IMG/VR virus record: IMGVR_UViG_3300008120_000040
Span: 1 to 60,589 of that record
Strand: one strand, 5' to 3'
DNA from: a virus
DNA length: 60,589 bases
Under the pieces are notes generated by a model, which was not told the DNA's origin, searched no databases, and worked only from the letters and a program-made list of their open reading frames with translations. This document shows positions 5,824-54,262 of this stretch, piece after piece. The position numbers and the translations under genes were made by a program. Within the stretch, counting starts at the first letter, position 1; every line of letters begins with the position of its first letter.

Positions 5824-6354
5824 TTAGTATCCTATTTTAAGGTTGTCAGATATAGTCTTACCTCTGTCAAGACAAGCTTGAGCAGCACCAGTGTCACTAT
5901 CTATTCCAGCTTTCTTAGCTGATTCTTGTTCTATGAATAATCTCTGTACGTCTTTTACAAATTTAAAGTCTTTCTCTAGTCCTGGGTTAATAGCCATTTT
6001 ATGCGCATTAGAATAGAAAGAACTCATAATGAAACAAACCAATACTGGCTTTTCATTCTTTGTATATACACTACCAGACTGAGGCGCATTAGATGTTAAT
6101 GTCAGCGTAGCGTTATATGCATAGTCTTTGTCAAGACCTGTCATTGTAATTGAATTGCCTGCAGCAAAAGGCCACGTGTAGTTATTGTATGTTACACCAC
6201 CTGAAACAAGGAAAGTGCCATCAGATTTCTGAATTGTTAATTTTCTCAATGAGAATGTACCCGTGCCTTCTACATTGTATGTTGAGGCATCATTTATAAT
6301 AAACTGACTACAATCTGCTCCCTGAGTAATTGTAATTGAAGTAATAAAAGGCAT
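5824..6354 (-). CDS. Virion structural protein, probably tail (176 aa)
   Basis: Start chosen at 6354 (MPFITSITITQGADC). A longer frame begins at 6372, but its first codons overlap a TATATTTG promoter box (6370-6377), so the upstream ATG would probably not be inside the transcript. Residues 1-110 look like a beta-sandwich (SITITQGADC ... GVTYNNYTWPFAAGNSITMT). The C-terminal 60 residues are helical (INPGLEKDFKFVKDVQRLFI) and Lys-rich. Its place between the giant internal protein and the fibres suggests a tail or neck component. No family is recognised. Confidence 0.72.
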   Translation of the reverse strand: MPFITSITITQGADCSQFIINDASTYNVEGTGTFSLRKLTIQKSDGTFLVSGGVTYNNYTWPFAAGNSITMTGLDKDYAYNATLTLTSNAPQSGSVYTKNEKPVLVCFIMSSFYSNAHKMAINPGLEKDFKFVKDVQRLFIEQESAKKAGIDSDTGAAQACLDRGKTISDNLKIGY

Positions 6355-37925: not shown

Positions 37926-37976
37926 TCATACGCGCATACGCGCACATACGCACGCACGTACACACGCATACGCGCG
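37926..37976. other. 51-bp perfect alternating purine-pyrimidine tract
   Basis: Every one of 51 consecutive bases alternates pyrimidine and purine, mostly CG, CA and TA steps (CATACGCGCATACGCGCACA ...). Such tracts can form Z-DNA under negative supercoiling. It is strikingly CG-rich for this A/T-rich genome and lies about 100 bp before the early leader. Confidence 0.8.
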
Positions 37977-38050
37977 CCCTATATCCTTATAGGGAGGCTG
38001 TAAAAAAGCTTTAACAAGAGTTTAACAATAAATATTTGGAGGGTCTAAAA

Positions 38051-38058
38051 TATGTTTG
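38051..38058 (+). promoter_or_regulatory. TATGTTTG -7 box, probable early promoter
   Basis: Matches TAnnTTTG. It is the last such box on the plus strand before the early genes. No good TTTG -33 element lies at the usual 19-21 base distance (a TTTG at 38035 is too close). A start near 38065 would give a leader of about 400 nt. Confidence 0.45.
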
Positions 38059-38064
38059 CACTTT

Positions 38065-38391
38065 TACAATGTCAACGGGGGACACCCCAACGACGCAGTT
38101 CTTTACAAGGTGGGTCACTCTAGGTAATCATTCCTAGGTAAGCACGACCCGATATCGCGAAAGGTTAGACAATCTGACTAAGTAGCACGAAAGGATATCC
38201 GCTAGGCCAACAAGCACACCAACAACCAACACACACCATCACCGCGCTGAGGGTATAAAAAGAGAGCGGGTAAGTAGCTACCACCTACATAGGTAGCGAT
38301 GACCTTACAGCAACGGAATCTGATTCTAGAATAATAGAATGGACGAGCTGAGATTGTCTCAGTTGCAGTCGGTTTACTAGGACGATAGCCC
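38065..38391 (+). ncRNA. Structured 5' leader upstream of early genes
   Basis: Several strong local hairpins follow one another: GGGTC/GACCC closing CTAGG/CCTAG (38112-38150 region), GTTAGA/TCTGAC near 38165-38180, GCTACC/GGTAGC near 38277-38298, and CTGAGA-TTG-TCTCAG near 38350. CGAAAGG occurs twice between two GATATC words. The absence of an ORF and this density of stems suggest a folded RNA. It leads directly into the type III hammerhead. No known riboswitch class is recognised. Confidence 0.5.
38120..38137. repeat. CTAGG...CCTAG inverted pair, copy 3
   Basis: CTAGG (38120-38124) and CCTAG (38133-38137) enclose 8 bases and lie inside a GGGTC/GACCC pair, so this copy would be the apical stem of a leader RNA hairpin. 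Confidence 0.5.
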
Positions 38392-38446
38392 AATGTACGC
38401 GGTTAAAAAAGCACCGCGCTGACGAGTCACAGAATGACGAAACATT
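38392..38446 (+). ncRNA. Type III hammerhead ribozyme
   Basis: All core parts are present in order: stem III AATGT (38392-38396), cleavage triplet GTA with predicted cut after 38397, stem I CGCGGT/ACCGCG (38398-38403 with 38413-38418), CTGACGA (38419-38425), stem II GTCA/TGAC (38426-38429 with 38435-38438), GAAA (38439-38442), and closing CATT (38443-38446). With the last A of GAAA, that pairs 5 bases of stem III. Every stem is fully Watson-Crick. It lies 20 bases before the first early ATG. Cleavage would leave the early mRNA with two 5' hairpins. Activity is inferred from the complete core. Confidence 0.88.
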
Positions 38447-38465
38447 AACAAAAAACCTATGTATT

Positions 38466-38699
38466 ATGAACAAAGATTACATCGTATCAATTACCAAGAC
38501 AAGCCATTTTAACCTAGATTACAAGCAATTAGCTATTGCCTACGAGCTTAGCACATGGGATGAAGCATGCGAGAAGTACAAAGAATGCGTCGCAGATGAA
38601 TCCATGCACGTTTCTACCTTAAACAGCGTGAGGTCAAGCGTAACTATCACGATGGCGCACAAGGACAGCATCCAATATAGAGTAAACATATACAACTAA
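38466..38699 (+). CDS. First early gene, unknown function (77 aa)
   Basis: 77 residues (MNKDYIVSITKTSHFNLDYK ... IQYRVNIYN), soluble, with no recognised domain. It is the first ORF after the control region and lies between two hammerhead ribozymes, so its message may be cut out of the long early transcript together with the next gene. The A-rich leader AACAAAAAACCTATGTATT is typical of non-Shine-Dalgarno starts. Confidence 0.75.
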   Translation: MNKDYIVSITKTSHFNLDYKQLAIAYELSTWDEACEKYKECVADESMHVSTLNSVRSSVTITMAHKDSIQYRVNIYN

Positions 38700-38710
38700 A
38701 ATTTAATACC

Positions 38711-38953
38711 ATGGAACAATTACTAAGCAACAAGTATGAGCAACTATGCGACACGCTGTCAATAGTTGAGGAATTCGTAGGTGAACTTGCAAGCGCACGC
38801 ACCCAAATGGATATAGCTGTTAAACTATGTCCATACGTAGACAATTTAAAAAACCTAGTAAGAGACAATCCTAGTATTGTACGTGAGACCATTGCGCACG
38901 ACTACATAGGATTAAGAGACGAGGACGAGGATTTTTTACCAAGACTAGCATAA
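38711..38953 (+). CDS. Early small acidic protein (80 aa)
   Basis: 80 residues, acidic and helical (LSNKYEQLCDTLSIVEEFVG, then DYIGLRDEDEDFLPRLA). It lies 11 bases after the first early gene, and its stop is one base before the stem I of the type I hammerhead, so both genes share the ribozyme-bounded segment. The function is unknown. First-expressed phage genes of this size often encode host-takeover proteins; nothing in the sequence proves that here. Confidence 0.75.
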   Translation: MEQLLSNKYEQLCDTLSIVEEFVGELASARTQMDIAVKLCPYVDNLKNLVRDNPSIVRETIAHDYIGLRDEDEDFLPRLA

Positions 38954-38954
38954 A

Positions 38955-39010
38955 GGTTAACTGACGAGCTGTTTATCAGCGAAATGCCCGCCCCCACGGG
39001 TATCTTAACC
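38955..39010 (+). ncRNA. Type I hammerhead ribozyme
   Basis: Core in order: stem I GGTTAA (38955-38960), CTGACGA (38961-38967), stem II GCTG/CAGC (38968-38971 with 38977-38980), GAAA (38981-38984), stem III TGCCCG/CGGGTA plus the core A-U pair (38984-38990 with 38997-39003, one G-U), cleavage triplet ATC ending at 39004, and stem I partner TTAACC (39005-39010). The predicted cut is between 39004 and 39005, leaving a 22-nt A-rich leader on the next gene. All conserved core residues are present. Confidence 0.9.
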
Positions 39011-39026
39011 AAAAAAAATAAATGTT

Positions 39027-39950
39027 ATGAGAAATCAAACAGCACCAAAAGTATTAGACGAGACATCAAGATTCAGCGCAAAGACAACAGCAAGCGCGGA
39101 GCGTAGTATTGACACAATCCTAGAGAACAGCAGACAAGACAATGTCTTTGTTGAATCCTCAATTGTGAGTTTATCTGAAATCACAGGTATGGCCACACGT
39201 AAAGGACTAGAGCAAGCAGTTATCTGCGAGAACGAAATCGTTAACGTGGTATCATCTAGCTACGGACACCTAGACAATCGTAAATTCTACTACGAAGCAG
39301 AATCAAAGTTGATTGACGCTGACATCTACTACAAACAGCGCTCAGTGAACAAGGATAACCGCTCATTCGCAGTGGATTATGTCCTAGCAGATGACCGCTA
39401 CAAGATTGAAATCAAGGGTGAACAAGACATCCTACGTCCAATGTTACGATTCGTTAATAGCTACGATGGTAGCTGTAAGACTAGCGGGTCTATCGGATTT
39501 TGGCGCAAGGTATGTGACAATGGTTTACATGTAGCTAACTTCAACATCGGGTTTAGTGTTAAGCACCGCGGTAATATTGCTGAGGTAGTTATGCCTAAGC
39601 TAGACGAGATTGTAGGTCAGTTTATGGACAACGAATTCTTTACCCTTAAGCGTAAGTTTGAGGTGCTTGCAGAGCGTCCCGTTACTAATGTAGAAGACTA
39701 CGTAAAAGCTACAGCTAAGACCCTAGGGTTATTCAAATACGAGGCATCGGATAAGAATCCCGAGCCTAGCGCTAACGCACGTTTTGTCTTTGACGTAATC
39801 AACCGCGAGTCTAAGCTATTGAATACACGTCCTAACCAATGGATTGTATACAACGCATTCAACGAGCTGTTACATGGCAAGTTAAAGAAGACGTTTGACC
39901 AACAAAAGAATCTTGACGAGCAATTGTTCGAGACAATCTATGCAGGCTAA
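39027..39950 (+). CDS. DUF932-family phage/plasmid protein (307 aa)
   Basis: 307 residues. The middle part (YKIEIKGEQDILRPMLRFVN, SYDGSCKTSGSIGFWRKVC, DNGLHVANF) is the hallmark of the DUF932 / phage-plasmid-like family, whose biochemical role is unsettled. It is preceded by the type I hammerhead cut site 22 bases upstream and followed by a strong terminator, so it may be produced as a separate, probably abundant message. Codon use is less A/T-biased than neighbours (GCA, CGC, CGT present), consistent with high expression. Confidence 0.8.
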   Translation: MRNQTAPKVLDETSRFSAKTTASAERSIDTILENSRQDNVFVESSIVSLSEITGMATRKGLEQAVICENEIVNVVSSSYGHLDNRKFYYEAESKLIDADIYYKQRSVNKDNRSFAVDYVLADDRYKIEIKGEQDILRPMLRFVNSYDGSCKTSGSIGFWRKVCDNGLHVANFNIGFSVKHRGNIAEVVMPKLDEIVGQFMDNEFFTLKRKFEVLAERPVTNVEDYVKATAKTLGLFKYEASDKNPEPSANARFVFDVINRESKLLNTRPNQWIVYNAFNELLHGKLKKTFDQQKNLDEQLFETIYAG

Positions 39951-54183: not shown

Positions 54184-54258
54184 GTCCCATTAACTCAATG
54201 GTAGAGTCTTCGCTGATAAAGAGCGAGGGGTGTATAGGTTCGATTCCTATATGGGACT
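54184..54258 (+). tRNA. tRNA with abnormal anticodon arm (identity uncertain, possibly Ile)
   Basis: Acceptor GTCCCAT/ATGGGAC (54184-54190 with 54251-54257), T8-A9, D-arm ACTC-AATGGTA-GAGT and T-arm ATAGG-TTCGATT-CCTAT are canonical. The anticodon arm is 3 bases too long. The most stable fold is CTTCGCT/AGCGAGG with loop GATAAAG, which lacks U33. A CTGATAA string inside equals the E. coli tRNA-Ile(GAU) loop but its flanks do not pair well. CCA is not encoded. It may be an atypical tRNA-Ile or a non-decoding tRNA-like RNA. Confidence 0.7.
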
Positions 54259-54262
54259 CAAT

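Follow-up and report, generated by a model that had tools for sequence, protein, structure and literature searches.

Ordered hammerhead ribozymes in a phage early region suggest the cutting of one long early message into ready-to-translate pieces

What would a self-cleaving ribozyme do directly ahead of the first early gene of a phage? This question is raised by the virus record IMGVR_UViG_3300008120_000040, whose full length of 60,589 bases we refer to as the window. The minus-strand genes of the window encode the terminase, the portal, and virion proteins, and the plus-strand genes from position 38466 on encode a DUF932 protein, a DnaA C-terminal domain, ERF, a PDDEXK exonuclease, and a primase/helicase; because of this division, the plus-strand cluster is plausibly the early region. 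The named phages closest to the window by terminase and DUF932 protein infect Flavobacterium, Cellulophaga, and other Bacteroidota. A 2017 review listed the role of prokaryotic hammerheads among the open questions of the field (PMC6155905), and according to a 2023 paper the reason for their association with phages is still unknown (PMC10085705). The ordered, fixed-distance layout that we describe here in hundreds of related phages suggests that phages use hammerheads to cut one long early message into ready-to-translate pieces.

Two hammerhead ribozymes at the start of the early region

The features of the window that enter the argument are as follows.

38051..38058, plus strand: TAtgTTTG, candidate -7 element of a Bacteroidota-type promoter by its sequence; a TAnnTTTG-like stretch is kept in close relatives
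38068..38397, plus strand: putative 5' leader RNA, predicted to be released by cleavage (fold z -1.97)
38392..38446, plus strand: type III hammerhead ribozyme before the first early gene, predicted cleavage 38397/38398 (GUA)
38392-38396 and 38442-38446: type III stem III, AATGT/ACATT
38398-38403 and 38413-38418: type III stem I, CGCGGT/ACCGCG
38419-38425 and 38439-38441: type III core, CTGACGA and GAA
Between the two core elements: type III stem II, GTCA/TGAC, loop CAGAA
38466..38699, plus strand: first early ORF, 77 aa, the open frame after the type III ribozyme
38711..38953, plus strand: second early ORF, 80 aa, its stop TAA ending 1 nt ahead of the type I ribozyme
38955..39010, plus strand: type I hammerhead ribozyme between the second and third early genes, predicted cleavage 39004/39005 (AUC)
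39005..39026, plus strand: 22-nt leader that predicted type I cleavage would leave on the DUF932 message, a spacing common to relatives (median 22 nt)
39027..39950, plus strand: DUF932 phage protein, 307 aa (Pfam PF06067, E 1e-15; phrog_21518, E 1e-105)
54184-54259: tRNA-Leu (TAA) gene, toward the end of the early cluster

The preliminary description of this locus read positions 38392-38446 as a complete type III hammerhead with three perfect stems and a GTA triplet, about 20 bases before the first early start codon. This reading holds in every part: the CUGANGA and GAA core elements and three stems in type III order are present (AATGT A/CGCGGT taaaaaagc ACCGCG CTGACGA GTCA cagaa TGAC GAA ACATT), the triplet is GUA at 38395-38397 (NUH, adjoining stem I, with A17 at 38397), and 19 nt separate the ribozyme from the start codon at 38466. 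An ATG ahead of it, at 38459, opens only 17 codons, and the first early ORF itself has no PHROG or Pfam match. Our stem-scoring scanner, which scores core and stems only, gave the element a score of 38, whereas 40 first-order shuffles (2.4 Mb) reached at most 17. The covariance model RF00008 matched it at 41.0 bits (E 6e-7 in a search of 2.1 kb, 4e-9 for the whole record), which is below the curated gathering score of 48.5, as is the case for nearly all hammerheads of these phages; at the gathering threshold, Rfam finds only the tRNA in the window. Close relatives (L002-L005 and L009) keep the ribozyme with compensatory changes in its stems. In a pattern search that left the letters of stem II free, this stem was fully paired in 62 of 79 nonredundant type III matches, in 17 pair combinations, compared with 15% after re-pairing. 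Re-pairing of upstream and downstream flanks between relatives was useless as a control for stems I and III, with 73% still passing, probably because these stems are alike among relatives; the stem II test alone is unbiased. Sequence, covariation, and relatives thus make well supported a type III hammerhead whose predicted cleavage would split the leader from the early coding RNA. When it is folded in its full leader context, by estimates that leave out tertiary contacts and co-transcriptional folding, its weak stem III is predicted to form only rarely (pair probability about 0.06 or less); cutting may therefore rely on tertiary contacts and on folding during transcription.

The ribozyme is, however, no lone leader trimmer: it is the head of an array in which a type I hammerhead, missed in the preliminary description, follows at 38955-39010. 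The core, three stems, and an NUH triplet are present there in type I order (GGTTAA-CTGACGA-GCTG(tttat)CAGC-GAA-ATGCCCG(ccccca)CGGGTAT-C/TTAACC), the scanner score is 41.5 against a shuffle maximum of 17, and the minimum-energy fold of the segment is the ribozyme fold (z -2.83). In context folding, with the same omissions, its stem I competes with upstream sequence. The ribozyme starts 1 nt past the stop codon of the 80-aa ORF, and its predicted cut falls 22 nt ahead of the DUF932 start. Relaxed-core scans of the window returned the same two ribozymes and no others. The core and topology of both are those of the Rfam hammerhead families (RF00008, RF00163, RF02276) and of RAGATH-1 (RF03152); nevertheless, the type I ribozyme of the window was not recognized by Rfam: RF00163 gave no match in a 161-base search at E values up to 10, and sister type I copies match it at 25-32 bits, below its cut-off of 34. 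A retrozyme-like mobile element was considered for this locus and ruled out: there is one type III and one type I ribozyme, with unrelated stems and no direct-repeat hammerheads.

At the DUF932 junction, one close relative (L002) has the same type I ribozyme as the window, and in five others (L004, L005, L006, L008, and L009) stems II and III of the type I ribozyme differ, with compensatory changes; L009 carries at least one type III and four type I ribozymes. In L003, between about 75 and 20 nt ahead of position 6001, a simple hairpin, GGGGG..CCCCC then TTTTAACC, replaces the hammerhead of the relatives. Since some relatives have no recognizable ribozyme at this junction, no single site is indispensable.

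Ribozyme layout across phages

Two pattern scans of IMG/VR, one with type I stem I fixed as GGTTAA/TTAACC and one with only the type III core and loop II fixed, were joined by a third scan of genome contigs and by loci fetched through proteins, giving 317 loci (3.04 Mb), mostly IMG/VR phage contigs. In the genome contigs, the type I pattern matched 24 stretches, and the scanner kept three loci (L298, L306, and L311), all on MAG contigs. Altogether the 317 loci hold 323 hammerheads, or 253 after removal of copies over 80% identical: 165 of type I, 74 of type III, and 14 of type II. In loci found through type III alone, most type I stems are again GGTTAA or a variant that bears a stop codon; thus, the GGTTAA signature is not only a matter of ascertainment. 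Only one hammerhead in 16 array loci passed the Rfam gathering score, and no other ribozyme class was found in these loci at the cut-off.

Where a locus has two or more hammerheads, all are on one strand (75 of 75 loci). The type III ribozyme is the 5'-most in 31 of 32 nonredundant mixed arrays, while 13 would be expected by random order. The types also differ in their neighbors: the upstream ORF ends at or inside the ribozyme for 140 of 159 type I and 12 of 13 type II hammerheads, and for 21 of 67 of type III (152/172 for types I and II together versus 21/67; Fisher p 1e-17); the type III share is close to the 29% of the control. In many type I ribozymes, the upstream stop codon lies within stem I (GGTTAA) or the core (cTGA). 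Hammerheads contained in a long same-strand ORF are few (9 of 233; control 30%). Taking gene starts as ATG open frames instead of using a gene caller adds noise. The distance from the type I cut to the ATG has a median of 22 nt and is 16-29 nt in 115 of 151 cases (15% of random controls fall within 30 nt), and the subset found through type III agrees with the whole set. The type III cut lies 47-72 nt upstream of the ATG in 39 of 68 cases, and shorter distances fall inside the ribozyme itself. Two loci, L189 and L116, have three type III hammerheads each; in L189, start codons directly follow two of the ribozymes (ACCGC atg), a layout unlike the III-then-I rule.

Cultured Flavobacterium elemo phages carry the III-then-I layout. 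In vB_FspP_elemoE_6-9C (NC_055854), a type III hammerhead stands just before gp59, which opens the minus-strand cluster, and a type I hammerhead stands just before gp66; the hammerhead region is found in 68 elemo records at 95% identity or more. Searches for named phages with the arrays of two other loci (L129 by megablast and L128 by blastn) gave no match.

Several sequence features recur along with the layout. Stem I of type I ribozymes is 6 bp long in 157 of 165, an A flanks it on either side (157/165 and 160/165), and loop II begins and ends in U in 150 of 165; from these sequence patterns, we read the 6-bp stem I, the flanking A, and the U-bounded loop II as a probable conserved loop-stem tertiary contact needed for activity. 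In types I and II, stem III loops of 4 nt are UUCG or GNRA in 48 of 95 cases, and a stem III capped in this way would give the upstream product a stable 3' hairpin. The leaders that follow stem I are 56% A, and a Shine-Dalgarno-like stretch occurs in 16 of 149, so leader style is not uniform. In 24 nonredundant cases with compensatory stem II (L004:5921, L005:5919, L006:4090, L008:1428, L008:3125, and others), the core has an additional U after CUGANGA, ahead of stem II, and start-codon spacing is mostly unchanged; at this site an inserted A or C was never found, and a G once.

The RNA ahead of type III ribozymes

The leader of the window had been described as folded and about 330 nt long. The length is plausible, resting on a putative start near 38068, whereas the fold is little better than chance (z -1.97). 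The candidate -7 element upstream is not accompanied by a -33 element at the consensus spacing. Homologues of this leader were found in L002, L005, L272, and L287; the one in L005 has modules in common with it, and L003 and L004 have largely unrelated sequence in its place. No credible match to a known RNA family was found by Rfam in the window leader or in sister leaders. An 11-base repeat, CACCGCGCTGA, occurs in the leader at 38241 and in the ribozyme at 38411, and pairing of the leader copy with stem I is conceivable; regulatory competition by this copy is unsupported, since L005 shows no covariation between it and the ribozyme.

Elemo-like phages have a conserved structured RNA ahead of the type III ribozyme: 99.4% of its pair cells are formed, and 8 pairs have changed on both sides, a number reached in 0 of 500 shuffles. 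A covariance model built on this leader (R1) found 26 loci at E below 0.001, and the matches mostly end 0-3 nt ahead of the ribozyme, with a larger gap in L214 and L224. A pattern scan of IMG/VR for the leader gave 16 loci, and a type III hammerhead comes next in all 16. In L209 (200-1334), the leader and ribozyme are the sole DNA matching elemo phages, at 82% identity. The R1 model matches L318 and L088 but nothing in the window at E values up to 5; the leader of the window belongs to a different class. R1 leaders at L318:18154-18287 (minus strand), L216:10708-10814, and L235:2275-2382 (minus strand) lie between a Bacteroidota-type promoter and type III hammerheads and have no Rfam match.

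Possible functions of the ordered ribozymes

We consider it probable that the early plus-strand RNA of the window is one long transcript that cuts itself at the type III and type I hammerheads, which would set the message ends and the start-codon leaders. The type III cut would remove the 5' leader, so that the early message starts with the perfect 6-bp stem I hairpin and a 5'-OH, and would leave no hairpin on the released leader. The message between the cuts would be 607 nt long and carry the ORFs at 38466 and 38711. Its 3' end would be the stem III hairpin left by the type I cut, as would also be the case after type II cleavage, and the DUF932 message would keep a short A-rich leader. With two ribozymes laid out in this way, message ends and start-codon leaders would therefore be set independently of the promoter and of neighboring genes. 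Sequence, fold, covariation, and recurrence show the two ribozymes themselves, and the survey shows the type order and geometry across phages; cleavage in the cell, protection of message ends, and a benefit to translation are what we infer: type III where the upstream RNA is non-coding, and types I and II where it is coding, is the placement that selection for message-end protection would produce, and a leader of about 22 nt would leave one ribosome footprint between the 5' end and the start codon. More tentatively, it is possible, if somewhat doubtful, that hammerhead type serves as an architectural code in a large phage group, probably mostly of Bacteroidota, with type III at the operon head and types I and II at equipped junctions. 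If so, the head ribozyme would give the first message a 5' hairpin and free a structured leader RNA, each junction ribozyme would give the upstream message a 3' hairpin and the next gene a leader of about 20 nt, and the ribozymes would substitute for RNase processing and intergenic translation signals.

The head ribozyme might instead serve mainly to free the leader, which would then act as an RNA in its own right with an exact 3' end, any effect on the message being secondary. The covarying leader of the sister phages that mostly stops just short of the ribozyme, the type III hammerhead next to every pattern-matched leader, and the joint recurrence of leader and ribozyme in L209 argue for this; nevertheless, we think it rather unlikely, because the window leader is outside the R1 family and folds only slightly better than chance, unrelated sequence takes its place in L003 and L004, and the type I and II ribozymes at other junctions would be left unexplained. 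A regulated switch, in which leader refolding or ribosomes terminating at the type I stop codon decide cutting, would fit the stop codons in stem I or the core, as a terminating ribosome would cover the 5' strand, and would fit the concealment of stem III of the head ribozyme in context folding. This appears improbable to us: the overlap of stop codon and ribozyme may merely reflect genome compactness, the leader repeat at 38241 and the ribozyme show no covariation in L005, and the ligand-binding families of Rfam gave no match.

Two further readings fare worse. That the elements are only hairpins or inactive remnants whose self-cleavage is unused is suggested by L003, where a plain G/C hairpin stands at the DUF932 junction in place of the hammerhead of its close relatives; yet stems II and III vary freely, and the catalytic core, the triplet, the 6-bp stem I, and putative tertiary nucleotides are conserved, which is beyond what hairpins alone would require and makes this reading very unlikely. 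It is hardly credible that the 607-nt RNA is ligated into a circle through its 5'-OH and cyclic-phosphate ends. Such end chemistry would suit RtcB-type ligation; on the other hand, no RNA ligase was found among the scanned window proteins (a subset of the ORFs), and the two ribozymes are of different types and are not direct repeats. A precedent exists in plant retrozymes, which spread through circular RNAs with hammerheads (PMC6155905), but Perreault et al. (2011) sought circular or spliced products and detected none (PMC3088659).

Self-cutting of one long early transcript, the reading that we prefer, has a precedent. Clustered hammerheads flank prophage genes and were proposed to process transcripts into gene-length messages; prophage clusters cleave in vitro, and cleavage in E. 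coli was shown for the A. tumefaciens set (Perreault et al. 2011, PMC3088659). Those clusters are like ours in having several hammerheads per phage transcript, with proposed cutting into single-gene or operon-length messages. They are mostly in prophages and among varied genes, whereas the present set is mostly free phage contigs, including a cultured phage, and the strict III-first order, the stop codon abutting or inside the ribozyme, and the start codon 16-29 nt after the cut are rules that we did not see in that text (PMC3088659). The same paper describes HHphage of the haloviruses HF1 and HF2, which is similar in lying 13 nt upstream of an early gene start, with the HF2 early transcript start mapping within 3 nt of the cut site; it differs in belonging to an archaeal virus, in its core insertion and high-salt activity, and in that no downstream array is described there (PMC3088659). 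Our search of open-access literature turned up no earlier description of the order of types, the fixed stop-ribozyme-start geometry, or the leader RNA.

With its III-then-I/II order and fixed distance to the start codon, this layout offers a concrete, testable answer on hammerhead role, and the elemo phages with Flavobacterium sp. BAL314 form a cultured phage-host pair for testing it. In synthetic biology, a comparable arrangement is the insulator RiboJ, an engineered sTRSV ribozyme placed between promoter leader and start codon, where it defines the 5' end; the hammerheads described here share this position but are natural and are repeated at gene junctions. Rfam at curated cut-offs misses nearly all of these phage ribozymes, and the elemo-type phages point to a structured leader RNA that is absent from Rfam. 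Farther upstream in the window, an alternating purine-pyrimidine tract (cgcatacgcgcacatacgcacgcacg...) occupies 37931-37984, within the divergent intergenic region that separates the late and early gene clusters.
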